Source of the DNA: Alterluteimonas quercicellularis
Lineage (GTDB): Bacteria > Pseudomonadota > Gammaproteobacteria > Xanthomonadales > Xanthomonadaceae
NCBI RefSeq assembly: GCF_021191635.1
Contig: NZ_JAIWPR010000005.1
Location: 62,001-126,000, forward strand
DNA length: 64,000 nt
Direction: 5' to 3'
A program made the position numbers and the translations under genes. The first letter of the stretch is position 1, and every line of letters starts with the position of its first letter. Below the pieces are notes generated by a model. It saw only the letters and a list, made by a program, of their open reading frames with translations, was not told the DNA's origin and searched no databases. This document shows, in pieces, positions 31,594 through 45,221 of the stretch.

Positions 31594-32688
31594 ATGACCG
31601 CATCCCGCAAGACCGTCGACGTCGGCGGCACCGCCCCGTACCGCATCGCCATCGGCCCCGGCCTGCTGGACGATCCCGCCGCCCTCGCCGGCCCGCTGCG
31701 CGGCCGCCAGGCGCTGCTGGTCACCGATTCCCACGTCGGCCCGCTGTACGCCGAGGCGGTCGCCGCGCGCCTGCGCGACGCGCGCCCGGGCCTGGCCGTG
31801 GCCACCTTCGCCCTGCCCGCGGGCGAGGCCTCGAAGACGCTGGAGGGCTTCGCCGGCGCGATCGACGCGCTGGCCGCGCTCGGCGCGCGCCGCGACGCCT
31901 GCGTGTACGCGCTGGGCGGCGGCGTGGTCGGCGACCTGGCCGGCTTCGCCGCGGCCTGCTGGATGCGCGGGGTGGACTGCGTGCAGCTGCCGACCTCGCT
32001 GCTGGCGATGGTGGATTCCTCGGTGGGCGGCAAGACCGCGGTCGACCTGCCGCAGGGCAAGAACCTGGTCGGCGCCTTCCACCCGCCGCGCGCGGTGCTG
32101 GCCGACACCAAGGTGCTGCAGAGCCTGCCGCCGCGCGAACTGCGCGCGGGCCTTGCCGAGGTGGTCAAGTACGGCGCGATCGTGGACGCGCCCTTCCTCG
32201 ACTGGCTGGAAGCGCGCGCCGACGCCCTGCTGGCGATGGACGACGACACGCTCGCCGAGGCCATCGCCCGCAGCTGCGCGCACAAGGCCGCGATCGTCGA
32301 GCGCGATCCCTTCGAGCACGGCGAGCGCGCGCTGCTGAACTTCGGCCACACCTTCGGCCACGCGATCGAGACCGAGCAGGGCTACGGCGGGCTCAACCAC
32401 GGCGAGGCGGTGGCGGTGGGCATGGCGCTGGCCGCGCGGCTGTCCGAGGCGCTGGGCCTGGCGAAGCCGGCCGACGGCGAGCGCCTGCGCGGGCTGCTGA
32501 CGCGGCTGGGGCTGCCGGTGGCGCTGCCGCCCGGGCTGGACCCGGAACGCCTGCTCGCGCACATGCGCCTGGACAAGAAAGCGCAGGCCGGCGGGCTGCG
32601 CTTCATCGTCTGGACCGGCGCCGGCCGCGCCCAGGTGCTGGCCGACGTACCGGAGCGCGCGGTGCTGGGCGTGCTGGGCGGGGATTGA
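31594..32688 (+). CDS. aroB: 3-dehydroquinate synthase
   Basis: An NAD- and metal-dependent cyclase converting DAHP to 3-dehydroquinate, 364 residues. The NAD site appears as [21 protein letters not shown] and [21 protein letters not shown]; the metal ligands as [30 protein letters not shown] and [12 protein letters not shown]. The start at 31594 is the first ATG after aroK. Followed after 28 bases by the convergent type I secretion channel gene. Confidence 0.96.
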
Positions 32689-32716: not shown

Positions 32717-34159
32717 TCACGGCGACGCCCCCGCGACGGCGGGACCGATCGGTGCCGGATGCGCGGCGCCGGCGGCGGGCACCCCGAAGCAGGCGGCGAT
32801 GCGCTGGACGTCCGCGCGGCCCAGCGCACCCGCCTGCCAGCGCAGCGACAGCCAGGCCAGCAGGAAGTCGTAGCGCGCGCGGGCGGCGTCGCGCTGCGTC
32901 TGGTAGCGGGCCTGCTCCGCGTCCAGCACGTCGAGATGGGTGCGCTCGCCGCCGAGCACGCTCTTCCGGGTCGCGGCCACCCGCTGCTCGGCGGCGGCGA
33001 GCGCCTGCTGGTACGCCTCGATCTTCGCCGGCCCGCTGCGGACCCGCAGGTACTGCCGTTCGAGGTCGTCCAGCAGGTCCGTCGTGGCCGCCTCCAGCTC
33101 GTGCTCGGCCTCGTCGAGCAGCGCGCGCGCCTGCCGCGAAGCGGCCGAGGTGCCGCCGCCGGCGTACAGCGGGACGCTGAGCTCGATCCCGATGGTGCCG
33201 GTGTCGTAGCGCTGGCCGATCTGGTTCTCGGCGTTGGAGCTGCTGAGCTGCTGCCGGACCAGCAGGTCCAGGCTGGGCAGGTGGCCGGCGCGCTGGCGCT
33301 GGTGCCTGCGGCGGGCCGCCTCGACCAGGCTGCGTTGCGCGGCCAGCTCGGGATTGCCCGCGAGCAGCCGCCGGCGCCAGGCCTCCAGCGGCTCGAGCCC
33401 GTCTTCCAGCGGAAGCCCGCGCGACAGCAGCGGCGCGACGCCGCCCTGCGGCACGGCGCCGCCGATCAGCGCGCGCAGGGCGTTGAGCGCGTCCCGGCGG
33501 CGGTCTCCGGACTCGATCCGCGCGACCTCGGCCAGATGCCGCCGCGCCTGCGCCTCGGCGCGCTCGGTGACGGTGCCTTCGCCGAGGCGCAGGAAGCGCT
33601 CGACGCGCTCGGCGTCCGCCGTCAGCGCCTGGAGGTGCGCCTCGGCCAGCGCCAGCTCGTCCTCGGCGTACAGCACGTCCAGGTAGGCCTGCAGGGTGCG
33701 CACCGCCAGCGCCTGGTGCGCGCGCTCCAGCACGTGCTCGGCGGCATCGGCGCGCGCCCGGCCCTCGCGGTAGCGCGCGTAGGCGGCGGCATCGAACAGC
33801 GGCTGGACCAGGGTCAGGCTGGAGGCGTAGCCGTCGTAGTCCACGTCCCGGACCGACGGGCCGAACAGCGTCGTCTCCCTGACCTCCGACCGGTTGCGCG
33901 AGCGCCAGTAGCGGTAGCCGACGTTGGGCAGCAGGCCGCTGCGGCCGAGCGCGCGCTCCTCGGCATCGGCCTCGCGCCGCGACCGCGCGGCCTGCCACGT
34001 CGGGTCGTGCTGCAGGGCGAGTTCGTAGGCGCGCAGGAAGTCCAGGCGGTCCGGCGCGCTCTCGCAGCGTGCCGGCGCGGCGAGCGCGGCGGCCAGCAGC
34101 GCGAGCCCGGCGAGCAGGCCTGCGCGGACGCGCGGGCCCGCCCGGCGCCGGGCCGTCAT
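32717..34159 (-). CDS. hasF: TolC-like outer-membrane channel of the hemophore exporter
   Basis: A 480-residue TolC-family protein. It has a signal peptide (about residues 6-28, GLLAGLALLAAALAAPARC) followed by two homologous helical/beta halves: DFLRAYELALQHDPTWQAARS with LVQPLFDAAAYARYREG, and LLSRGLPLEDGLEPL... with IGIELSVPLYAGGGTSAAS. It should form the outer-membrane exit of the type I system encoded upstream. Its ATG overlaps the adaptor stop (ATGA). The symbol reflects context; the family call is firm. Confidence 0.92.
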   Translation of the reverse strand: MTARRRAGPRVRAGLLAGLALLAAALAAPARCESAPDRLDFLRAYELALQHDPTWQAARSRREADAEERALGRSGLLPNVGYRYWRSRNRSEVRETTLFGPSVRDVDYDGYASSLTLVQPLFDAAAYARYREGRARADAAEHVLERAHQALAVRTLQAYLDVLYAEDELALAEAHLQALTADAERVERFLRLGEGTVTERAEAQARRHLAEVARIESGDRRRDALNALRALIGGAVPQGGVAPLLSRGLPLEDGLEPLEAWRRRLLAGNPELAAQRSLVEAARRRHQRQRAGHLPSLDLLVRQQLSSSNAENQIGQRYDTGTIGIELSVPLYAGGGTSAASRQARALLDEAEHELEAATTDLLDDLERQYLRVRSGPAKIEAYQQALAAAEQRVAATRKSVLGGERTHLDVLDAEQARYQTQRDAARARYDFLLAWLSLRWQAGALGRADVQRIAACFGVPAAGAAHPAPIGPAVAGASP

Positions 34160-35577
34160 TCGTCGCCCCATGCCGTGCCCAGCCGGTCGAACAGGGGCTT
34201 GAACAGGTAGCTCATCAGCGAGCGCTCGCCGGTGCGCACGAAGACGCTCACCGGCATGCCCGCGCGCAGCGGCTGCGAGCCGAGCCGCAGGCGCTGCAGC
34301 TGCTCCGGCGCGACCGACACGCGCACCCGGTAGTAGGGCTCGCCGCTGCGCTCGTCCTCCAGCCGGTCCGCCGACACCAGTTCGACGGTGCCTTCCAGGC
34401 GCGGCGTGCGGCTCTGCTCGAAGGCGGTGAACAGCAGTTCCACCGGAAGCCCGCCGTGCACCTTGTCCACGCTGGAGACCGGCAGCCGGCCTTCCACGAT
34501 CAGGGGCTGGTCCTCCGGGACGATCTCCATCAGGCGGCCGCCGGGCGCCACCACGCCGCCGACGGTGTGGACGGACAGGCCGACCACGATCCCGGCGGCC
34601 GGCGCGCGGATCTCGGTGCGCGCCAGCTCGAACTCCGCCGCGTCCAGCTGGTTCGCCAGCGACTGGCCTTCCAGCCGGGCGTCGGCCAGCTCGCCGCGGA
34701 CCTCCTGCTGGTGGGCGTCGCGGCGCTGCGCGATCTGCAGGCCCAGCTCGGCGATCTGGCGGCGCGCCTGGCCGAGGCTGCCGAGGTCGCGCGAGATGTC
34801 CGCCAGCAGCGAGGCGTGAAGCCGCTCGGTCTCCAGCAGGCGGTTGCGCGCCACGTAGCCTTCGCTCGCCAGCTGCCGCAGGTTGCCCAGCTGCTCGCCC
34901 AGCGCGCGCGACTGCTCGCGCTTGTGGGCGAGCGCGGACTCGATGCCGGCCACCAGCTCGCGCTGCCCGGCCAGGTTCTGCCGCAGGCTGCCCAGCTCCT
35001 GCTCCAGCGCCGAGCGGCGGCTGGCGAACAGCTGCGCCTGCAGCTCGACCGTGGCGCGGATGTCGGGATCGTCGGATCCGCGCAGCGGCGCGGGCAGTTC
35101 GATGCGATCGAGGCCGTCGCGCTCGGCGCCCAGCCTGGCCTCGCGCGCCTGCACCGCGGCCAGGCGCGCGCGCAGGGCCTGCGCCTCCGCGCGCGCCCGG
35201 GTCGGATCCAGGCGCACCAGCACCTGCCCGGCCTCGACCCGGTCGCCCTCGCCCACCGGCAGCGCGGCGACGATGCCCCCGCCCACGTGCTCCACCGCCT
35301 GCCGGTGGCCGGCGACGACGACCGTGCCCGGCGCGGACACGCCGTTGTCCAGCGGCGCGAACGTCGCCCAGGCCAGGAAGCCGCCGAAGCCGAGCGCCAG
35401 CAGCCACCAGCCCAGGCGAGCCGGCGAGCCGCGCGGCGCCTGCGACGCTTCCTCCGCCGCCAGCGCCGCCAGCGTGGGCGCGCCGCCGGGCGGCGAAGGC
35501 GCGATCGGCGCACCCCGCGCACGGCCGGGCCGGCGCCCGGCGCGGGACATCGCGTCCTGCGGGCCGGACCGGTTCAT
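34156..35577 (-). CDS. hasE: HlyD-type membrane fusion protein of the hemophore exporter
   Basis: A 473-residue type I secretion adaptor. It has a cytoplasmic Pro-rich start, one membrane helix (about 55-74, GWWLLALGFGGFLAWATFA) and a lipoyl half (GTVVVAGHRQAVEHVGGGIV). A long helical hairpin follows (about 110-290, Gln/Leu/Arg-rich heptads), then the second lipoyl and beta-barrel part with IRAPAAGIVVGLSVHTVGGV and the signature LRAGMPVSVFVRTGERS...YLFKPL. Both ends overlap neighbouring genes (ATGA), so the three exporter genes are translationally coupled. Matches PrtE/HasE. Confidence 0.94.
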   Translation of the reverse strand: MNRSGPQDAMSRAGRRPGRARGAPIAPSPPGGAPTLAALAAEEASQAPRGSPARLGWWLLALGFGGFLAWATFAPLDNGVSAPGTVVVAGHRQAVEHVGGGIVAALPVGEGDRVEAGQVLVRLDPTRARAEAQALRARLAAVQAREARLGAERDGLDRIELPAPLRGSDDPDIRATVELQAQLFASRRSALEQELGSLRQNLAGQRELVAGIESALAHKREQSRALGEQLGNLRQLASEGYVARNRLLETERLHASLLADISRDLGSLGQARRQIAELGLQIAQRRDAHQQEVRGELADARLEGQSLANQLDAAEFELARTEIRAPAAGIVVGLSVHTVGGVVAPGGRLMEIVPEDQPLIVEGRLPVSSVDKVHGGLPVELLFTAFEQSRTPRLEGTVELVSADRLEDERSGEPYYRVRVSVAPEQLQRLRLGSQPLRAGMPVSVFVRTGERSLMSYLFKPLFDRLGTAWGDE

Positions 35578-37391
35578 TCCTGCGCCTCCGCCGCGCGCCG
35601 CGGATCGCCCGGCGCCGGAACGCTGCGGGCGCTCCAGAACGGAACGGCGGCGGCGGAACGGACACCGACCGCAGCGGGAGCTGCGGCGGGCGCGGGCCGA
35701 TCCGCCTGCAGCCGCCCCAGCACTTCGGCGGTGGGGCCGCAGGCCACCACCCGGCCGGCCTTGAGCGCCAGCAGGCGGGTCGCGGCCTCGAGCACCCTGG
35801 GACGGTGGGTAGCGACCACTACCGCGGCGCCGCACTGCCGCAACCGCTGCAGGCAGGCCAGCAGGGCCTGCTCGCCCTCCTCGTCGAGGCTGGCGTTGGG
35901 TTCGTCCAGCACCACCAGGCGCGGCGTGCCGTAGACCGCGCGGGCCAGCGCGATGCGTTGCCGCTGCCCTCCCGACAGCCCCTGCCCGCCCGGGCCCAGC
36001 ACGGTGTCGTAGCCGCCGGGCAGCGCCAGGATCGCCGCGTGCGCACCGGCCAGCTGCGCCGCCTCCACCACCTGCTGCGGATCGGCATCGTCCGCGGCGA
36101 AGCGGGCGATGTTCTCGGCCACGCTGCCGGCGAACAGGTCCACCTCCTGCGGCAGGTAGCCGACGTACTGCCCGAGCCGGTCCCGGTCCCACTGCCGGAG
36201 GTCGGCGCCGTCCAGGCGGACCGTGCCCACGCGCGCCGGCCAGACGCCGGTCAGCACCCGCGCCAGCGTGGACTTGCCGGAACCGGACGGGCCGACCACG
36301 CCGAGGATCTCCCCGGGCCGCAGGGAGAAGGTCACCGCCACCAGCGTGGCGGCCGCCGCCGATGCGCCCGGCGGCAGCGCCGTCACGCCGTCCACGTGCA
36401 GTTCGCCGGACGGCGGCGGCAGCGGCTGCCGCGCGGGCCGCGGCGGATGCGCGCCCAGCAGCGCCCGGGTCCGCTCCCAGGCCCGCCGGGTCCCGCTCCA
36501 CTGCCGCCAGGCAGCGATCACCTGGTCGATCGGTCCGAGCACGCGCCCCATGAGGATCGACCCCGCGATCATCATGCCGGGGCTGATGCGGTTCTCGATC
36601 GCGAGCCACGCGCCGACCCCCAGCGCCAGCGACTGCAGCAGCAGGCGCAGGCTCTTGGACAGCGAGCCGATCCGCGCGCTGCGCTCGCTGGCCACGGCCT
36701 GGCGCCGCACGGCGCCGCGATGCACGGTGTTCCAGCGCCCGGACAGCCGCCCGAGCATGCCCATCGCCTCGATCGTGCCGGCGCTGCGCAACTGGTCGTC
36801 GGCCATCCGCGAGGACTGGTCCGCGAGCTGCCCGGCCTCGGCGAGCAGCCGGCGGCCGGCCCGGTCGTTGAGCCAGGCCAGCGCCGACAGCAGTACGATC
36901 CCGGCCACCGCGAGCGCGCCCAGCCAGGGGTGGAGCAGGAACATCACCAGCAGGAAGATCGGGCACCACGGCGCGTCGAAGAACGCCGGCACCGCGCTGC
37001 CGGTGAGGAACTGGCGGACGCTGTCGAGGTCGCGCCCGGCCTGGTCGGCCTGGGCCTGCCCGCCGGCGAGGCCGCGCTCGAAGGCGGCCTCGTAGACCCG
37101 CAGGCCCAGCCGGTCGTCCAGGCGCGAGCCCGCGTCGATCACCACCCGGCTGCGGGCGTACTCCAGCGCGCCCAGCAGCGCCAGCAGGCCGGCGGCGACG
37201 AGGGTCAGCATCAGCAGGGTAAAGCCGTTGCCCGAGGCCAGCGCGCGGTCGTAGACCTGCAGCATGTAGATCGACGGCGTCAGCAGCAGCGCGTTGATCG
37301 CGGCGCTGAACGCGCCGATGCCGATCGCGCTGCCGCGCAGGCCGCCGAGCGCCGCGGCGACGCCGTCGCGGTCAGCCGTTGCAGCGTTCAT
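35574..37391 (-). CDS. hasD: Type I secretion ABC transporter (PrtD/HasD family)
   Basis: The inner-membrane energy unit of the exporter, 605 residues. The transmembrane domain (about 20-320) carries the family stretch SIYMLQVYDRALASGNGFTLLML and FFDAPWCPIFL. The nucleotide domain has Walker A GPSGSGKST near residue 367, VGYLPQEVDLFAGSVAENIARF, signature LSGGQRQRIALARA and Walker B LVVLDEPNASLD. There is no C39 peptidase domain, as expected for exporters of hemophores and proteases with uncleaved C-terminal signals. It follows the hemophore gene by 151 bases containing a stable hairpin. Confidence 0.95.
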   Translation of the reverse strand: MNAATADRDGVAAALGGLRGSAIGIGAFSAAINALLLTPSIYMLQVYDRALASGNGFTLLMLTLVAAGLLALLGALEYARSRVVIDAGSRLDDRLGLRVYEAAFERGLAGGQAQADQAGRDLDSVRQFLTGSAVPAFFDAPWCPIFLLVMFLLHPWLGALAVAGIVLLSALAWLNDRAGRRLLAEAGQLADQSSRMADDQLRSAGTIEAMGMLGRLSGRWNTVHRGAVRRQAVASERSARIGSLSKSLRLLLQSLALGVGAWLAIENRISPGMMIAGSILMGRVLGPIDQVIAAWRQWSGTRRAWERTRALLGAHPPRPARQPLPPPSGELHVDGVTALPPGASAAAATLVAVTFSLRPGEILGVVGPSGSGKSTLARVLTGVWPARVGTVRLDGADLRQWDRDRLGQYVGYLPQEVDLFAGSVAENIARFAADDADPQQVVEAAQLAGAHAAILALPGGYDTVLGPGGQGLSGGQRQRIALARAVYGTPRLVVLDEPNASLDEEGEQALLACLQRLRQCGAAVVVATHRPRVLEAATRLLALKAGRVVACGPTAEVLGRLQADRPAPAAAPAAVGVRSAAAVPFWSARSVPAPGDPRRAAEAQE

Positions 37392-37461
37392 CGCGTTCGT
37401 ATCGTCCTGGGCGTGGGCCGGTGGGGGTGGCGTGCATCGCGCGGTGTTCGGGGGCCTGTTG

Positions 37462-37488
37462 CCGCCGTGGCCTCGCGGGCCACGGCGG
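37462..37488 (-). terminator. Hairpin between hasA and the exporter genes
   Basis: An 11-bp stem (CCGCCGTGGCC with its complement) around a TCGCG loop, 55 bases beyond the hasA stop. It probably attenuates read-through so that more hemophore than exporter is made, or stabilises the hasA message. Confidence 0.55.
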
Positions 37489-37542
37489 TGTTCCGTGTCT
37501 CCCGTCCGGCAGCGCCGGGCCGGGAGCCGATGGGGCCCGGAC

Positions 37543-38142
37543 TCAGGCCGCCAGCGCGTACTCGGTCTCGGTGACGGCGAAGTCGCCGACCAGGTCGGCC
37601 GCGCCCGGCACGTAGAGGTCGGCCACCGTGGTGCCGGCGGTCACGCCCTGGTCCTCCAGCGCGGCGATCAGGCCGCCCGGGCTGACCGTGCCGGCGCTGT
37701 CGCTGGCGCCGTCGACCGAACCGTTCATCAGGCCCCAGAGGACGTCGTGGACCACGTTGGCGCGGCCCTCGGCCAGGGTGCCCTGCAGCGCGGCGTCGAA
37801 CTCGATGGTCAGGAACGGGCTGACGACCTCGCCGGTGGAGGTGACGCCGGCGCCCAGGGTGATCGACTCCAGCGACCCCCACAGGGTGTGGGTGGGGAAG
37901 TCGTAGGTCAGGTTGCCGGTGGCGACGAAGGCGTAGCCGTCCACCGTGGCGCTGGTGAAGCCGTAGCTGGTGCCGGAGAAGGCGTCGCCGCCCCAGAAGC
38001 CGCCGTAGTTCGGCACGCCGGTGTGCTCGCCGGCGACGCCGCTGTCGTCGAAGGCGCGCAGGACGTCGAACAGCGGATCGTTGACGGTGTAGCCCCCTTC
38101 GGGGAACAGCGTTTCGTTGTACTGGGTCACGTAGGCAGACAT
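37543..38142 (-). CDS. hasA: Secreted heme-binding hemophore HasA
   Basis: A 199-residue HasA-family protein. Both known heme-iron ligand positions can be found: the first-loop histidine in AGEHTGVPN (His40) and the tyrosine in TGNLTYDFPTHTLWG (Tyr80), with the supporting His85. GFWGGDAFSGTSYGF, FDVLRAFDD and VHDVLWGLMNG also match Serratia and Pseudomonas HasA. There is no N-terminal signal peptide. The extreme C terminus ends in small hydrophobic residues (EYALAA), the type I secretion signal of this family. It is placed between the receptor and exporter genes. It would scavenge heme from hemoproteins outside the cell. Confidence 0.93.
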   Translation of the reverse strand: MSAYVTQYNETLFPEGGYTVNDPLFDVLRAFDDSGVAGEHTGVPNYGGFWGGDAFSGTSYGFTSATVDGYAFVATGNLTYDFPTHTLWGSLESITLGAGVTSTGEVVSPFLTIEFDAALQGTLAEGRANVVHDVLWGLMNGSVDGASDSAGTVSPGGLIAALEDQGVTAGTTVADLYVPGAADLVGDFAVTETEYALAA

Positions 38143-38206
38143 GGTGCTTTCCTCGTTGAGTGATGGAAAAGGATGTCGCGTTCGCTCGGGACGTCTCCCT
38201 GGCTTC

Positions 38207-38230
38207 GGGCCTCGCTGCGAAGCGGGGCCC
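38207..38230 (-). repeat. Stem-loop in the hasR-hasA gap
   Basis: GGGCCTCGCT pairs with AGCGGGGCCC (one G-T pair) around GCGA. Lies between the hasR end and the hasA start and could be part of a terminator or hasA leader. Confidence 0.45.
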
Positions 38231-38268
38231 TAGTTCGGCACGCGGACGGCGCCCGCACGCCTTCTGCG

Positions 38269-38288
38269 CGTCCCGCGGCCGCGGGACG
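38269..38288 (-). terminator. Perfect palindrome just after hasR
   Basis: CGTCCCGCGG followed directly by its complement, immediately adjacent to the hasR stop codon. It is stable but has no T-run. A terminator or processing site for the receptor transcript. Confidence 0.5.
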
Positions 38289-41200
38289 TCAGAAGCTCCA
38301 CTCGAATCCGACCTGGGTGGTCCGGCCCGGCGCCGCCACCCACGCCAGGTGGTCCGCGCCGGTGTCGACGTAGTTGCGGTCGCGCAGGTTCTCGACCGAG
38401 GCGAACAGCTTCAGGTTCGCGTTGACCCGGAAGCTGGCATACCAGTCCAGCAGCGTGTAGCTGTGCCAGACGTCGACGTCGCGGTAGGCCGCGCCGTAGG
38501 CGTTGCCCAGGAAGCCGCCGCTGCCGCTGTAGGTCAGGCGCAGGCCGGTGTCCAGGCGCCGGTCGAACAGGCGGGTGCCCAGGACCAGGTGGCCCTTGTC
38601 CAGCGGACGCCCGGCGATGCTGTTGAACACGCCGACGGTGTCGTCGCAGACGACCTGGTCGTCGGCCCACGCCTGCCAGCTGTCGTAGCCGGCCTCGACC
38701 GCCATCCGGTGCGGTTCCGGGTACACGCCGTTCTCGTCGGGCCGGTCGTACTTGCTGTCGCCGGCGCCGGCGAAGTACAGGTCCTGGCAGAAGCGGTTGT
38801 CGCCGCCCACGTAGCGGATGTAGGAGAACTGCGCATACACCGGGCCCGCGTCGTAGCGGCCCTCCAGCTCGATGCCGCGGAAGCGGGTCGGCGCGCGGTT
38901 GTTGACGAAGGCGGTCTTGCCCAGGCCGAACAGCGCGTTGGTGCCGGTGCCGGGCGTGTTGTTGTTCAAGGTGGTGATGACGTAGTCGTCGGCGCGGGTG
39001 TCGAAGTAGCCGAGCTTCAGGAACAGCGCGTCGCCCTGCGCGAACACGCCCTCGAAGGCCAGGTTGGCGCCCATCTCCCAGGTCCGGCTGGTCTCCGGGT
39101 CCAGGTTCGGGTTGGAGTACATGTAGGCGAAGTTGTCGCCCGGGTGGCTGCCGGCCATCAGCGTCTCGTTGATGGCCGGCGGGCGCCACGACCTGCCCCA
39201 GTTGGCGTACAGCTCCAGCCAGCGCGTGGGCCGGATCGCCGCGGCCAGGGCCGGCAGCCACTTCCCCTGCGAACGGTCGACGCGGTAGTCGTACAGGCCG
39301 GTCGAGTCGACCCAGCGCGGCGAGAAGTTGCCGCTGGTGTAGTAGTTGGGCTGGTTGTCGATGACCCAGGGCTCGCCGAACTCGCGGGCGTTGCCGCATC
39401 GCTCCACGAAGTAGTCGCCGGAGCGCGTGCACATGTAGGCCAGGTACTGGTCGTAGCGCGTCCGGTACACGCTCCGCGTCCCCGGCACCTGGGTGTCGCC
39501 CTCGAGCGAGTAGCGGTCGTAGCGCAGCCCGGCGGAGACGGTGTAGAAGTCGTCTTCGAGCGTGAGGTTGGCGAACGCGCTGGCCATCGCGCGCTTGCCC
39601 TCGGGATTGAGGCTCTCGCCCTGGCCGTACTGGTTGTAGTGCTCGATCGTGCGGCCCTCGTGGTCGCGGGTGATCGTCGAGCCGGCCTCGTCGCGGAAGT
39701 ACTCCAGGCCGTAGTTCGCGGTCAGCAGCGCGCTGTCGCCCACGTCGAAGCGCGAGGTGTTGTCGAGCTGCAGGCCGCGCGTCTCGGTGCGGATGCGCTG
39801 GTTGAGGCCGATGCCGTAGGTGCAGGCGGTGGCGATGCTGCCGGCGATCGAGTCGCCCTCGCACTGGCCGCGGTCCCACAGGCCGTCGATGTAGGTGCCG
39901 ATGTAGTCCTCGCCCAGCCCCATCGCCTCGTACTGGGCGTTGGTGAAGCCGAACAGCGTGGCCGGGTAGCGCGGCTCGGTGCGGTTCCTGTTGCGGGTGT
40001 CCACGGTGTAGATCTTGGCCCGCAGGTCGATCCAGTCGCTGCCGGGCGGCGCCCAGCGCCAGTCCAGCGCATAGCTCTCGGTGTCGACCCGGGCGTCGCC
40101 GCTGCGGCGCCAGGGCGACTCGCCCACGGCCAGATCCAACGCGGAGGCCCGCTGCTCGGACAGGTTGGCGTAGTCCAGGCCGGTGCCGATGTAGGTGAAC
40201 TGCAGCCACTGCCCGTCGCCGACGTCGAAGCGGGCCTTGAACAGGTCCGAGTCCTGCTTCTGGCTGGCGAAGCGGATGGTCTGCAATCCGGTCAGCGCCT
40301 CGTAGTCCTCCAGGTCGGTCAGCAGCGCATCGCCCCACCAGCCGGCGTCGCCGCGGCGGCCGACGTCGTAGTCGCCGATCGAGCGCCGGCTGCGCGCCGC
40401 CAGCACCCGCCAGCGCTCGCCCAGCTTCGCGGCGCCGGCCGCGCTGCCGATGAAGTCGACGCCGTTGCCCTCGCCGCCGAGGCCGCCGTTGCCGCGCAGG
40501 CGCAGGCCGTAGCCGCCGTCGTCGCGGATCAGGTCGGCGAAGTCGAGGGTGTGGAAGTTCACCTGGCCGGCGATGGCGGACATGCCGTGCACGTCGTTGC
40601 GCGGGCCGCGCTCGATGGTGACCCCGGACAGCAATTCGGCGTCGATGTACATCTGCCCGTTGCGCTGCTGGTGGCCGTTGCGCACGAAGTTCTGGCGCAT
40701 GCCGTCGATCATCATGTTGACGCGGCCGAAGTCCTGCATGCCGCGGATGTTGATCGACAGCGCGGGGTCCAGGCGGTTGACCGCGCTGGCGACGCCCGGC
40801 GTGGCCTCGATCAGCTCCGCGGCGTGCCGCACCGGGATGCGGTCCATGTCCTCGCGGGTGACCACGCTGAGCGCGCGCGGGGCCTCGTAGATCGCCTCGG
40901 CGGCCGGTGCGCCGCCGCCGGCGCCCTGCAGGCGCCGGCCTTCGACCTGGAGCGTGCCCAGCACGATCCCGTCCGCCGGCCGCTTCTCGACGACGGCGAT
41001 GCCGGGCTCCTGCCAGCGCCAGGCCAGGGGCGTGCCCGCGAGCAGGCGCGACAGCGCCTCCTCGGCGGTGTAGCGGCCGGACAGCGCCCGGCTGCGGACG
41101 CCGGCGGCGTCGGCGGAGGCGAACAGGATGCGCAGCTCGCCCTGGTCGGCCAGGCGGGTCAGCGCCGCGTCCAGCGGCTGGGCGGGGATGTCGAACTCGC

Positions 41201-41348
41201 GGGCCGGCACGGCGGCCGCCTGCGTCGGCGCGGGCGCCTGTGCCATCGCCGGGCCGGCGCACAGGACCAGGGCGATGCCGGCGGCCAGCAGGGAACCCGG
41301 GCGGGCACGGGAAGGACGGCAGGGGGAAGGAAGGCGGGAAGGCGTCAT
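38289..41348 (-). CDS. hasR: TonB-dependent heme/hemophore receptor HasR with signalling domain
   Basis: A 1019-residue outer-membrane receptor. The signal peptide is SLLAAGIALVLCAGPAMAQ (about 20-37, using the ATG at 41348; an earlier in-frame ATG at 41420 would add 24 residues). Then comes an STN signalling domain (EFDIPAQPLDAALTRLADQG, ILFASADAAGVRSRALSG, TAEEALSRLLAGTPLAWRWQ), a TonB plug (PRALSVVTREDMDRIPV, NIRGMQDFGRVNMMIDGMRQ, GVTIERGPRNDVHG) and a 22-strand barrel. The barrel has NPNLDPETSRTWEMG and the C-terminal VGFEWSF ending. The STN domain, with the adjacent FecR and sigma genes, indicates cell-surface signalling. Longer than Serratia HasR. Confidence 0.92.
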   Translation of the reverse strand: MTPSRLPSPCRPSRARPGSLLAAGIALVLCAGPAMAQAPAPTQAAAVPAREFDIPAQPLDAALTRLADQGELRILFASADAAGVRSRALSGRYTAEEALSRLLAGTPLAWRWQEPGIAVVEKRPADGIVLGTLQVEGRRLQGAGGGAPAAEAIYEAPRALSVVTREDMDRIPVRHAAELIEATPGVASAVNRLDPALSINIRGMQDFGRVNMMIDGMRQNFVRNGHQQRNGQMYIDAELLSGVTIERGPRNDVHGMSAIAGQVNFHTLDFADLIRDDGGYGLRLRGNGGLGGEGNGVDFIGSAAGAAKLGERWRVLAARSRRSIGDYDVGRRGDAGWWGDALLTDLEDYEALTGLQTIRFASQKQDSDLFKARFDVGDGQWLQFTYIGTGLDYANLSEQRASALDLAVGESPWRRSGDARVDTESYALDWRWAPPGSDWIDLRAKIYTVDTRNRNRTEPRYPATLFGFTNAQYEAMGLGEDYIGTYIDGLWDRGQCEGDSIAGSIATACTYGIGLNQRIRTETRGLQLDNTSRFDVGDSALLTANYGLEYFRDEAGSTITRDHEGRTIEHYNQYGQGESLNPEGKRAMASAFANLTLEDDFYTVSAGLRYDRYSLEGDTQVPGTRSVYRTRYDQYLAYMCTRSGDYFVERCGNAREFGEPWVIDNQPNYYTSGNFSPRWVDSTGLYDYRVDRSQGKWLPALAAAIRPTRWLELYANWGRSWRPPAINETLMAGSHPGDNFAYMYSNPNLDPETSRTWEMGANLAFEGVFAQGDALFLKLGYFDTRADDYVITTLNNNTPGTGTNALFGLGKTAFVNNRAPTRFRGIELEGRYDAGPVYAQFSYIRYVGGDNRFCQDLYFAGAGDSKYDRPDENGVYPEPHRMAVEAGYDSWQAWADDQVVCDDTVGVFNSIAGRPLDKGHLVLGTRLFDRRLDTGLRLTYSGSGGFLGNAYGAAYRDVDVWHSYTLLDWYASFRVNANLKLFASVENLRDRNYVDTGADHLAWVAAPGRTTQVGFEWSF

Positions 41349-41425
41349 GGGTCCAGTCGGCGGTCCGGGGGCACGGGCACCCGCACCCGCGGCGCTGCGC
41401 CGGATGCGAATGTCTCTCATTCCTA

Positions 41426-41453
41426 TAGACGAACCTGGCGCGCCGAAATTGCA
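41426..41453 (-). promoter_or_regulatory. ECF-sigma-type promoter upstream of hasR
   Basis: On the minus strand TGCAATT (41453-41447) is followed after 15 bases by CGTCTA (41431-41426). The identical pair with the identical spacing lies upstream of the FecR gene. This is the FecI-like arrangement of a -35 AAT-type box and a CGT-type -10 box. It places transcription start about 70 bases before the hasR ATG. Confidence 0.65.
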
Positions 41454-41533
41454 GTCCCGGTCGCGGGCCGGTGGCGCCCTCCCCGCCGACGCCCCATCCC
41501 GCGCCGCGCCGCGCGGCCGGCCGGATCAGCGGA

Positions 41534-42487
41534 TCAGCGGATCAGCGTCAGCAGCGGCAGGCGGACGATGTCGGCGCGGGCGACCCCGGCGACGGTGCGC
41601 AGCAGGGCGTCGGCGTCGTCGAGGCCGAACACGCCTGAAATCTCGAAGCGCCGCAGGCGCTCGCCCACGACGATCACGCGGCCGGCCGTGTAGCGCTCCA
41701 GCTCGGCGGCGACGGCCGCCAGCGGCTGCCGGTTGAAGATCAGCTTGCCGCGGGTCCAGGCGGCGAGCGCGGCGGCGTCGACCGCCTCGACCAGCCCCAG
41801 CACGCCAGGACCGAAGGCCACGCGCTGGTCGCCGTGGACAGCGACGGTCCCCGCCTCGTTGCGGACCTCGACCGTCCCGGACAGCACGACGACCGCGCTG
41901 TGCCGTGCCTCGCGCCGCAGGACGTAGCGCGCGCCGGCGGTGCCGGCCTCGCCGTCGCGGCTTCTGGCGACGAACGGCCGCGCCTCGGGGCCGACCTCGA
42001 ACAGCGCTTCGCCCGCCGCGACCGAGACCGTGCGCAGCGTCGCGGAGAAGTCCACGGACAGCGCGCTGGCGGTGTTGAGCCAGGCCGGCGATCCGTCGGG
42101 CAGGGTCAGTCGCCGGCGCTGGCCGACGCGGGTGGTCTCGTCGGCGAAGACGCCCGCCGCCGGCCCCAGCAGGCCGCTGCCGGCCAGGCCCGCCACGGCC
42201 GCCGCGGACGCGCCGCCGACCAGCAGCGCACGGCGGCTGATGCCACGCCGCGGGGGCGGGGCCAGCGCCCGGACCCAGCGGCGGTGCTCGGCCGCCGTCT
42301 CCGTCCGGCCGACGTCCTCCAGCAGCGCACGGGCCTGGCGGACGGCCTCGACATGGGCCGGCGAGCGCCGGCACCAGGCCTCGAACGCGGCCCGCGCTTC
42401 CGGGCCGGGGTCGCCGCCCAGGCGGACCACCCACTCGATCGCCTCGTCGCTGAGCGCATCGTTGCGGGGGCGGAAGCGATCGGACAT
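41534..42487 (-). CDS. FecR/HasS-type anti-sigma factor
   Basis: A 317-residue inner-membrane regulator. The cytoplasmic N part (ALSDEAIEWVVRLGGDPGPEARAAFEAW) is the FecR N domain that holds the sigma factor. A membrane segment at about 87-108 follows a twin arginine (ISRRALLVGG), suggesting Tat-dependent insertion as described for E. coli FecR. The periplasmic FecR domain follows (RRLTLPDGSPAWLNTASALSV, LRTVSVAAGEALFEV) and a C-terminal STN-like part (RYTAGRVIVVGERLRRFEISGVF) that would contact the receptor STN domain. It follows the sigma gene by 164 bases and has its own ECF-type promoter. Confidence 0.92.
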   Translation of the reverse strand: MSDRFRPRNDALSDEAIEWVVRLGGDPGPEARAAFEAWCRRSPAHVEAVRQARALLEDVGRTETAAEHRRWVRALAPPPRRGISRRALLVGGASAAAVAGLAGSGLLGPAAGVFADETTRVGQRRRLTLPDGSPAWLNTASALSVDFSATLRTVSVAAGEALFEVGPEARPFVARSRDGEAGTAGARYVLRREARHSAVVVLSGTVEVRNEAGTVAVHGDQRVAFGPGVLGLVEAVDAAALAAWTRGKLIFNRQPLAAVAAELERYTAGRVIVVGERLRRFEISGVFGLDDADALLRTVAGVARADIVRLPLLTLIR

Positions 42488-42605
42488 TGCGGCGTGGCGG
42501 TCGGCTGCGCGGGATGGGCGGTCGGCGGCGCGGAGCGAGCGCCGACCCGGCTGAGGAAGGCCCGAGCGGGTCCGTCCGTGGACCCGTTCGGACCTCCCTC
42601 ACCAT

Positions 42606-42633
42606 TAGACGTTCCGCGGAGGGCGGAATTGCA
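42606..42633 (-). promoter_or_regulatory. ECF-sigma-type promoter upstream of the FecR gene
   Basis: TGCAATT (42633-42627) and CGTCTA (42611-42606), 15 bases apart, starting 18 bases after the sigma gene stop. It matches the hasR promoter in both boxes and spacing, while the spacers differ, as expected for conserved binding elements. It implies that the anti-sigma gene is switched on by the sigma factor it restrains. Confidence 0.65.
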
Positions 42634-42651: not shown

Positions 42652-43149
42652 TCACGGCGCCGGCAGGCGGTTGCGGCAGTGGCGCATGGCCTGGCCGATG
42701 TACTTGGCGACCATGCTCTCCGAGACCGCGAGCCGGCGCGCGATCTGGGCGTGCGACAGGCCGTCCACGCGGAACAGCAGCAGCGCCAGGCGGGCGTTCG
42801 GCGGCAGTTCCCGCAGCGCGCGGTCGAGCTGCTGCAGGCGCTCGTGCGCCAGCGCGCGCTGCTCGGGGCCCGGGGACGGATCGGGGATCGACGGCGGCGG
42901 CTCGCCGTCGCCGGCGCCGCGCTGGTCGCGGCGGGCCGCGTCGATGGCGAGGTTGCCGGCCACGCGGTAGATGAAGGCGCGCCGGTCGCGGATCTCCTGC
43001 GAGGACTCGACGTCCAGCAGCCGCAGGTACGTGTCCTGGACGGCGTCTTCCGCGCGCGCGCCGTCGCCGGTGCGGCGGCGCAGGTTGCGGGCCAGCTCGT
43101 CGTAGAGACCGAGGAAGCTGTCGATCAATCGGGGCGGGGGACGGGTCAT
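42652..43149 (-). CDS. ECF sigma factor, FecI/HasI type
   Basis: A 165-residue ECF sigma factor with regions 2 (LIDSFLGLYDELARNLRRR...AEDAVQDTYLRLL, RRAFIYRVAGNLAIDAARR) and 4 (LDRALRELPPNARLALLLFRVDG, then the helix-turn-helix LSHAQIARRLAVSESMVAKYI). The ATG at 43149 gives the usual length; the longer frame upstream is shadow. Its genes of control should be the FecR and hasR units downstream. I found no clear Fur box ahead of it, although iron control would be expected. Confidence 0.92.
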   Translation of the reverse strand: MTRPPPRLIDSFLGLYDELARNLRRRTGDGARAEDAVQDTYLRLLDVESSQEIRDRRAFIYRVAGNLAIDAARRDQRGAGDGEPPPSIPDPSPGPEQRALAHERLQQLDRALRELPPNARLALLLFRVDGLSHAQIARRLAVSESMVAKYIGQAMRHCRNRLPAP

Positions 43150-43306: not shown

Positions 43307-44002
43307 CTAGCGCGCCTCGCCGTCGCCGCCGGCGGCGCCGAGCCCGGCCCCCAGGCCGGCGCCCATGCCCATCCCGGCGCCCATTCCGCCTCCCATCCCG
43401 CCACCGCCGCCGCCACTGCCGCGTCCGCCGCCCTCGCCGCCGCCGCGCTTGCCGGTGTCGCCGCTGCGCAGCGGCCCCTGGTCGGGGATCGCCAGCCCGT
43501 CCGGCACCGGCTCCAGGTCCAGCGCCTGGCGGATGAAGGCACGCAGGGACACCACCAGCGCGGCGGTGCGCACCGCGCGCCCGTCCGCCATGTCCCGGGC
43601 GGCCTGCGCCGCCAGCCGGACCTGCTCCTCGGTGCCGAGCAGGATCACGTCCGACAGCGCCGCTTCCACCGCATCGCGGATGCGGCGCCTGCGGTCGGAG
43701 CCGAGGGGGTCCTCCGTCGCGGCGGCGCCGGCCTCCGGCGTGCCGGCCTGCGCGCGACGGCGCAGGTCGCGCAGGTGCGAGGGATCGACCGCGAGCTCGC
43801 CGGTGAACGAGCCGCCGAGGGTCTTGTACGCCGCGATCAGCGTCTTCAGGCGCTCGTTGATCTGCCTGTTCTCGCGCTCGCGGCGGCGCTGCACCACCTG
43901 CATGAAGGCCAGGCGGATGCCGACCGCGACCAGCGAGACCACGACGATCCCCAGCAGGGTCGTCAGCACGGCGTTCCAGGAAGTGAAGTCGAGGCTGCGC
44001 AT
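43307..44002 (-). CDS. Unknown membrane-anchored protein with Gly/Met-rich tail
   Basis: A 231-residue protein. A single N-terminal membrane helix (about 9-30, [24 protein letters not shown]) is followed by a basic helical linker ([19 protein letters not shown]), a helical domain with repeated Arg/Ala segments and a C terminus from about 195 that is almost only Gly with Met and Ala. The family is not recognised. The first helix and [25 protein letters not shown] resemble proteins annotated only as hypothetical. It diverges from hemE and lies beside the ECF sigma gene, but nothing ties it to heme uptake. The start at 44002 removes a 70-residue basic extension lying over the hemE promoter. Confidence 0.65.
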
Positions 44003-44147: not shown

Positions 44148-45221
44148 TTGTCCGCACCGCCGAAGAACGACCGCCTGCTGCGCGCCCTGAAGCGCGAACC
44201 CGTGGACCGCACCCCCGTCTGGCTGATGCGCCAGGCCGGCCGCTACCTGCCCGAGTACCGCGCCACCCGCAAGGCGGCCGGCAGCTTCCTGGCGATGGCG
44301 AAGAACCCGGACATCGCCTGCGAGGTCACCCTGCAGCCGCTGCGGCGCTTCCCGCTCGACGCGGCGATCCTGTTCTCCGACATCCTCACCATTCCCGACG
44401 CGATGGGGCTGGAGCTGTACTTCGTCGAGGGCGAGGGCCCGAAGTTCCGCCACCCGGTGCGCGACGCCGCGGCGATCGCGAAGCTGGGCGTGCCCGACAT
44501 GGAGACCGGGCTGCGCTACGTGATGGACGCGGTGCGGGTCATCCGCCGCGAGCTGGACGGCAGCGTGCCGCTGATCGGCTTCTCCGGCAGCCCGTGGACG
44601 CTGGCCTGCTACATGGTCGAGGGCGGCGGCAGCAAGGACTTCGCGCGGATCAAGGCGCTGGCGCTCAACGACCCCAAGGCGCTGCACGCGCTGCTGGCGG
44701 TCAACACCGACGCGGTGATCGCCTACCTCGCCGCGCAGCGCGCGGCCGGCGCGCAGGCGCTGCAGGTGTTCGACACCTGGGGCGGCGTGCTGTCGCCGGC
44801 GATGTACCGCGAGTTCTCGCTGCCGTACCTGGCCCGCATCGCGCGCGAACTCGAACGCGGCGCAGGCGACGCGCGCACGCCCCTGATCCTGTTCGGCAAG
44901 GGCACCGCGGCCTACCTCGAGGACCTGGCGCGGACCGGCGCCGAGGGCGTCGGCGTCGACTGGCTGGTCGAGCTGGGCGACGCCGCGCGCCGCACCGGCG
45001 GCCGCGTCGCACTGCAGGGCAACCTGGACCCGGCGACGCTGTACGGCTCGCCCGAGGCGATCCGCGCCGAGGCCCGCCGCGCGCTCGACAGCTACCGCGA
45101 CGGCAACGGCGGCTCGCGCGAGGGCCACGTGTTCAACCTCGGCCACGGCATGTCGCCGGACATGGACCCCGACCGCGTCGCAGTGCTGGTCGACGAGGTC
45201 CACGCCTACAGCGCGCGCTGA
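44148..45221 (+). CDS. hemE: Uroporphyrinogen decarboxylase
   Basis: Decarboxylates uroporphyrinogen III to coproporphyrinogen III in heme synthesis. It is 357 residues. The start is a TTG, with CAAGGAA eight bases upstream, giving [22 protein letters not shown]; no ATG or GTG fits. The two family signatures are [16 protein letters not shown] and [20 protein letters not shown]; the catalytic Asp lies in [20 protein letters not shown], and the end is [20 protein letters not shown] heme-synthesis gene next to a heme-uptake locus is notable but may be coincidental. Confidence 0.95.

Follow-up and report, generated by a model that had tools for sequence, protein, structure and literature searches.

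A Hemophore Operon Probably Controlled through the Promoter Code of a Siderophore-Type FecI/FecR Cassette in Alterluteimonas quercicellularis

Results

Gene Content and Setting of the Hemophore Locus

The window, that is, the whole stretch of DNA analyzed here, comprises 64,000 nt of the Alterluteimonas quercicellularis contig NZ_JAIWPR010000005.1 (positions 62,001 to 126,000; GCF_021191635.1). It contains a hemophore locus with all genes on the minus strand, in the order sigma factor, FecR, HasR, HasA, HasD, HasE, and TolC-family channel. The features of the locus and its surroundings are as follows.

31594-32688, strand opposite to the operon: aroB (TIGR01357 over cut-off)
32717..34159, minus strand: TolC-family outer-membrane channel, final gene before aroB (TIGR01844 over cut-off)
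34156..35577, minus strand: hasE, type I secretion membrane-fusion protein (TIGR01843 over cut-off)
35574..37391, minus strand: hasD, type I secretion ABC protein (TIGR01842 over cut-off)
37543..38142, minus strand: hasA, hemophore, 199 aa (PF06438 over cut-off, E 1.4e-17; matches solved HasA structures)
38289..41348, minus strand: hasR, TonB-dependent heme receptor, 1019 aa, with STN, plug, and barrel (TIGR01785 over cut-off)
41403..41421, minus strand: Fur-like box over the predicted hasR transcript start (15/19 match to an AATGAGA-type consensus)
41426..41453, minus strand: predicted promoter of hasR (-35 TGCAATT at 41447-41453, -10 CGTCTA at 41426-41431)
41534..42487, minus strand: FecR-type anti-sigma factor at the hasS position, 317 aa (DUF4880 and FecR; tree)
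42552..42601, minus strand: hairpin of 21 bp (one mismatch), where the hasS transcript is predicted to begin
42606..42633, minus strand: predicted promoter of hasS (fecR) (-35 TGCAATT at 42627-42633, -10 CGTCTA at 42606-42611)
42652..43149, minus strand: ECF sigma factor at the hasI position, 165 aa, FecI type (Sigma70_r2 and r4_2; tree, AU test)
Within 42652..43149, minus strand: region 4.2 helix of the sigma factor, VSESMVAKYIGQAMRHC
43310-44002, minus strand: small gene separating the island from hemE, matching no NCBIfam family

With an ECF sigma factor, a FecR protein carrying DUF4880, and a receptor carrying an STN domain, the FecI/FecR cell-surface signaling set is complete. The receptor matches the Serratia HasR chain 5c58_A at an E value of 7e-148, and its start was set at 41348 because the ATG at 41420 would coincide with the predicted transcript start. 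No NCBIfam match was found for the 199-aa HasA. The Tyr and His of its NLTY...HTL(Y/W)G part are kept, and the residue aligned with the first-loop histidine of the Serratia protein is not a histidine; the Tyr and the two His positions are those of the heme ligands. The HasDE type I exporter adjoins hasA. HasB, a TonB paralog, was not found within the operon: hasE is followed by the TolC-family gene, at the place where Serratia has hasB, and then by aroB on the other strand. GC-rich hairpins, mildly above shuffled sequences, lie on the minus strand between hasA and hasD (37392-37538, z -1.3) and between hasR and hasA (38143-38288, z -1.8).

The distance from aroB (ending at 32688) to hemE (starting at 44148) is 11.5 kb in the window. 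In a flank comparison that covered 9 of a set of 12 other genus members, the two genes share one contig and one strand in 9/9, with 298 to 1,192 bases between the matches. Of five genomes of the genus examined for the small gene at 43310-44002, one (L217) contains a relative of it, 77% identical and likewise situated between hemE and aroB; the gene is probably native to the site, so that the island would extend from tolC through the sigma gene. The island has a G+C content of 74.5%, compared with 71.9% and 72.7% in its flanks. Contamination is argued against by hemE, which is 86-90% identical to same-genus copies. PF06438 HasA was detected in 1/395 genomes of the family, 1/369 of the class sample, and 1/52 of the genus, always in this genome; the search was negative in all 14 control genomes, and its sensitivity is gauged from this genome only.

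Predicted Twin Promoter Sites Private to the Operon

The original prediction had placed twin ECF promoters ahead of fecR and hasR, and the sites are as it described. TGCAATT and CGTCTA are exact at both, 15 bases apart, on the minus strand; boxes and spacing are identical, and the spacers differ. When up to two mismatches were allowed, TGCAATT-N15-CGTCTA was matched three times in the window against 0.15 expected, two of the matches being exact. The further remark that the pattern had been seen nowhere else withstood the genome-wide two-box scan that had been proposed for finding the full regulon: in 4,515,788 bases on 109 contigs, these two are the sole exact matches, accompanied by two with a single mismatch. 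One of the latter (L004) falls within a long plus-strand ORF; the other (L003) lies 87 bases past the end of a plus-strand ORF, where only mechanical minus-strand ORFs cover it. No heme gene was recognized among the ORFs around either site. Random recurrence across the genome, the weakness that the original prediction had itself named, is confined to degenerate matches: at up to two mismatches, 25 were counted, compared with 29 for a reversed control pattern, so that the exact pair stands out and the looser matches represent background. A wider regulon was considered and no further members are proposed, the looser matches being at control level.

The pairing is also specific to the two upstream stretches. 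Their dyad score of 14 was reached by none of 100 dinucleotide shuffles. In a comparison with locus classes set by hand, the hasS stretch of the window scored at best 11 against 66 foreign hasR stretches, and its hasR stretch at best 12 against 66 foreign hasS stretches, compared with 14 for the own pair. The twin sites are thus a real pair, private to the has operon. Between 32500 and 44300, no sigma-70 promoter-like match was found (0.3 in shuffles) and one terminator-like match (1.8 in shuffles).

Boxes of Other Has Systems

When genome contigs were scanned for HasR, 79 loci were obtained from the best 80 of 177. Matches to hasI, hasS, and hasR occur in that order in 66 of the 79, and the 13 others were left out of the stretch comparisons. 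Among these 79 loci, from the best 80 of 177, none contains an exact TGCAATT-N15-CGTCTA. Serratia loci carry TTTACGGGTTT ahead of both hasS and hasR; since a review names the same sequence as the one recognized by HasI (PMC9249621), its recovery serves as a check on the method. Other loci have different shared boxes: CGTTA is paired with TTTTTACTG in Achromobacter and with TGAGG in Halomonas relatives, and CGTC with TTTACTGAC in some Pseudomonas. Of the 132 stretches that the 66 other has loci provide, 97 contain TTAC[CTG]G-N17-CGT[CT], and several Pseudomonas loci have TTACCG or TTACGG before hasS but TTACTG before hasR. Twin dyads are no blanket rule across has loci and form a modest trend: 38 of 67 stretch pairs, the window included, pass at no more than 5/100 shuffles, and the reverse complement scores as high in 23 of 67.

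On one point the sites depart from the HasI-like system that had been expected. Their -35 box is TGCAATT and not of the HasI type, be it the TTTACGGGTTT of Serratia or the TTAC[CTG]G-N17-CGT[CT] of other has loci.

Ancestry of the Sigma and Anti-Sigma Factors

Has-linked sigma factors were matched in 67 of the 79 has loci, and none of them exceeds 39% identity to the window sigma. A 398-genome sample of the phylum, in contrast, yielded sigma factors 54-57% identical to it in five genomes besides this one, which represent two genera. Downstream of these best relatives stand a FecR and a receptor that shares 27-29% identity with HasR where the two match. The siderophore-receptor model TIGR01783 was passed by both of the two receptors that were scanned, for which RhtA and FoxA are the top models, below the curated cut-offs.

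In a tree of 92 sigma factors, including 34 has rows, the window sigma groups with siderophore-receptor-linked FecI proteins at 100/97, on a long branch (0.65) and with a weakly supported exact sister inside the subfamily (91/23). Joining it to 22 classical HasI proteins costs 66 log units and is rejected by the AU test (p 0.0008); on the tree and this test, classical HasI orthology is rejected for the window sigma. The has-linked sigma factors are themselves hardly one clade, as an AU test restricted to 29 of them, with the window row left out, returned p 0.039. The label "has-linked" changes six times on the tree with the window row and five times without it, a soft number because several has-linked rows sit on long branches; for this count, the L108 row was relabeled, as the sigma factor it represents is a neighboring one of TGCAA type rather than the has-linked one. 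In the FecR tree (58 rows), the window FecR falls in the same subfamily at 99/99, and its placement with the classical has group gave p 0.058 in the AU test, above 0.05. Judged from these trees and from the boxes described below, the window sigma belongs to a FecI subfamily that adjoins siderophore receptors and has TGCAA boxes, and the anti-sigma factor probably stems from another FecI/FecR lineage than classical HasS.

The TGCAA Code of the Siderophore-Type Relatives

The relatives' cassettes comprise 41 loci from two genera, of which 40 (19 and 21) are readable and one (L279) is severed by a contig end. TGCAA-N17-CGT, which has the window spacing, lies between fecR and the receptor gene in all 40 readable loci and in none on the opposite strand; with two genera only and many sites near copies, the 40 are far from independent cases. 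Because the first search had used the window's own pattern, an unguided count was made in the 40 stretches, covering every 5-mer/4-mer dyad whose halves are 10-22 bases apart. TGCAA-N17-CGTC came first and, with its one-base shift, is missing from no locus of either genus (19 and 21). TGCAA-N12-CGT (17) and TGCAA-N20-CGT (19) were also seen; in the listed sites of one genus (g328), these variants are neighboring CGT triplets of the same site. None of the 66 other has loci has TGCAA-N17-CGT in either stretch; of the 67 pairs, only that of the window carries it, and does so at both positions.

A matrix built from 42 relatives' sites, with no window sequence included, ranks the window sites first (42633) and second (41453) on both strands of the 64 kb, with scores of 18.5 and 14.3 followed by 13.7. 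This ranking is partly circular, since the sites had been collected with TGCAA and CGT required; the unguided count makes the discovery of the boxes independent of that requirement but leaves the ranking subject to it. With a matrix from the other genus (g474) only, both window sites lead clearly, and with one from g328 only, the hasS site alone leads and the hasR site is outside the top four. When a classical has matrix was built likewise, from TTAC[CTG]G sites, the window sites came 42nd and 549th in the 64 kb.

The recognition helix follows the same division. It reads VSESMVAKYI in the window sigma and VS[EN]SMV[AG]KYI in most relatives, whereas classes that use other boxes have SSVQKHL, STVEKHL, or STVEKDM. 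As such a fit also follows ancestry, it is support and not proof. FecI triads from the same family (L036-L055) were tried as a source of the motif and rejected; their one match within two mismatches (L051) lies inside a receptor match and not upstream.

In two Pseudomonas loci, a TGCAA-type sigma/FecR/receptor cassette (L108 2849-5066 and L110 2818-5047, minus strand) and a classical has cluster point away from each other, their sigma matches about 260-280 bp apart; cassettes could readily be exchanged in such an arrangement. TGCAA-N17-CGT occurs just after fecR in both, and a second pattern match lies about 600 bases on, inside the receptor match.

As to the anti-sigma gene, sigma and fecR overlap in g328 and leave no room for a fecR promoter. 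In g474, the gap between them is 119-138 bases in 18 of 21 loci. In these g474 siderophore cassettes (L223, L225, L282-L300), CGTC lies 31-35 bases after the sigma stop in 21/21; at the position where the window has TGCAATT, 15 of 21 have TG and none has TGCAA. This pattern provides a lead that a promoter for the anti-sigma gene may be older than its use in the window.

Separate Histories of Receptor and Sigma Factor

In a tree obtained by a quick method, the window HasR lies among has receptors, nearest to those of Altericroceibacterium and Halotalea. With the receptor there and the sigma among siderophore-type FecI proteins, the two appear to have different histories. The plug and barrel of HasR are clearly has-type, with identities of 60% and 40% to has receptors compared with 24% and 16% to the relatives' receptors. 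Its STN domain, on the other hand, averages 38.6% identity to the relatives' receptors, 37.5% to those of other triads of the family, and 32.9% to has receptors, and its lean toward the relatives, a mild one, ranks second in size when 37 has receptors are compared. The highest individual STN identity, 43.8%, is to a receptor of a third kind (L048), and a siderophore-cassette origin of the STN domain is at most suggested.

Iron Box and hasS Leader Hairpin

No Fur-like box was found in the 300 nt ahead of the sigma gene, where the best match is 8/19 and the shuffle mean 7.7; across has loci, scores of at least 13 occur in 47 of 67. The Fur-like box that lies over the predicted hasR transcript start was equaled in none of 500 shuffles. 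A second form of the Fur consensus gave 11/19 at best, which 9 of 500 shuffles equaled. In the 40 relatives' stretches, Fur-like matches lie 24-25 before or 33-53 after the start of TGCAA, as counted without a shuffle control. Iron is predicted to exert its control on the promoter of the receptor gene rather than on the sigma gene.

The hairpin at 42552..42601 has z scores of -3.7 and -5.3 in two foldings and no T run after it. The next best value is -1.6 among 58 other has loci, and values reach -2.9 in g474 cassettes. It could insulate hasI from hasS or stabilize the hasS transcript.

Discussion

A Has Operon with a Probable Siderophore-Type Regulatory Cassette

The regulatory logic apparent at this locus is known from the has system of Serratia marcescens, where HasI drives hasS and hasR (PMC9249621). 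The window resembles it in the order of sigma factor, anti-sigma factor, receptor, hemophore, and exporter, in a receptor that is 42% identical to Serratia HasR in the alignment, and in a sigma factor predicted to act on both the anti-sigma and the receptor gene. It differs in having TGCAATT in place of TTTACGGGTTT as the -35 box, a sigma and probably an anti-sigma factor from another FecI/FecR lineage, a TolC-family gene where Serratia has hasB, and no Fur-like box in the 300 nt ahead of the sigma gene. The siderophore cassettes (L221-L225, L265-L300) share with the window the sigma clade, the recognition helix, TGCAA-N17-CGTC, and the FecR clade, and are distinguished by their receptors, 27-33% identical to HasR where the two match; the partner in the window is HasR and not a siderophore receptor. 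The HemI-HemR-HemAD system of Stenotrophomonas maltophilia is likewise a FecIRA-like heme signaling system (PMC12772443); the accessible text describes one Fur-repressed operon without autoregulation and does not name a hemophore gene (PMC12772443). What appears to be new in the window is the siderophore-type sigma cassette on has genes. Searches of the openly available literature returned no title that deals with control of a has operon by a siderophore-type FecI, nor one that describes a TGCAA code for this FecI subfamily.

Based on these data, the has effector operon is very probably under the control of a FecI/FecR cassette of siderophore type, whose promoter code it shares. Both sites would be promoters read by the adjoining ECF sigma factor, a role that the original prediction had assigned to it along with the anti-sigma and receptor genes as targets, and that the computed evidence supports. 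HasR would sense heme or heme-loaded HasA, and its STN domain would signal via the FecR-type anti-sigma factor. The freed sigma would then transcribe hasS, resetting the brake, as well as hasR and, by read-through, the hasA, hasD, hasE, and tolC genes behind it. As sigma and anti-sigma belong to the siderophore-type subfamily, the has effector module appears coupled to a cassette of that type, with both has promoters carrying the code of the cassette. The relatives' receptors would be controlled by their own sigma factors in the same manner.

Alternative Explanations

The strongest alternative is that the sigma and anti-sigma factors are orthologous to HasI and HasS, as the original prediction had implied by likening the system to that of Serratia, and that the -35 boxes have merely drifted together with the sigma. 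The gene order and the two-promoter logic are indeed those of Serratia, and in this respect the likeness stands; boxes shared by hasS and hasR also occur in Serratia, Achromobacter, and Halomonas relatives, and the AU value for FecR (p 0.058) would allow common ancestry. The sigma factor itself speaks against orthology (AU p 0.0008), and this part of the likeness is lost. Moreover, the boxes of the siderophore cassettes fit the window sites while the classical has boxes do not, and the closest sigma relatives stand beside non-HasR receptors, of which the two scanned are RhtA- and FoxA-like. We therefore regard orthology as unlikely.

A second alternative, that a single long transcript starts at hasI and that both boxes are relics or weak sites, would agree with all genes lying on one strand. 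It leaves unexplained why boxes and spacing are identical despite differing spacers and why the receptor site is kept in 40/40 readable loci of the relatives, and the 21-bp hairpin between hasI and hasS also disfavors it; its probability is very low. That the twin pair is a chance coincidence has in its favor only that the boxes are short, and is negligible given 0/100 shuffles, two exact matches in 4.5 Mb, both here, and the same boxes with the same spacing in the relatives.

Implications for Cell-Surface Signaling

More generally, coupling of the has genes to a siderophore-type cassette would suggest that effector genes (receptor barrel, hemophore, and exporter) and sensing cassette (sigma, anti-sigma, receptor STN, and both promoters) are separable. 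On balance, we lean toward a history in which a siderophore-type cassette replaced HasI/HasS, perhaps including the STN domain, and in which has systems have made use of several FecI lineages.

If this holds, the locus represents a cell-surface signaling circuit rewired in nature, in which one heme-uptake module is controlled by one sigma factor or another, and the -35 code differs with the sigma factor, in keeping with its region 4.2 helix. Such loci would provide natural pairs for learning which residues of ECF sigma factors read which -35 bases. Control of an anti-sigma gene by its sigma factor is described in the review as a departure special to has (PMC9249621). The window and its relatives would indicate that promoters for anti-sigma genes exist beyond the classical has systems.
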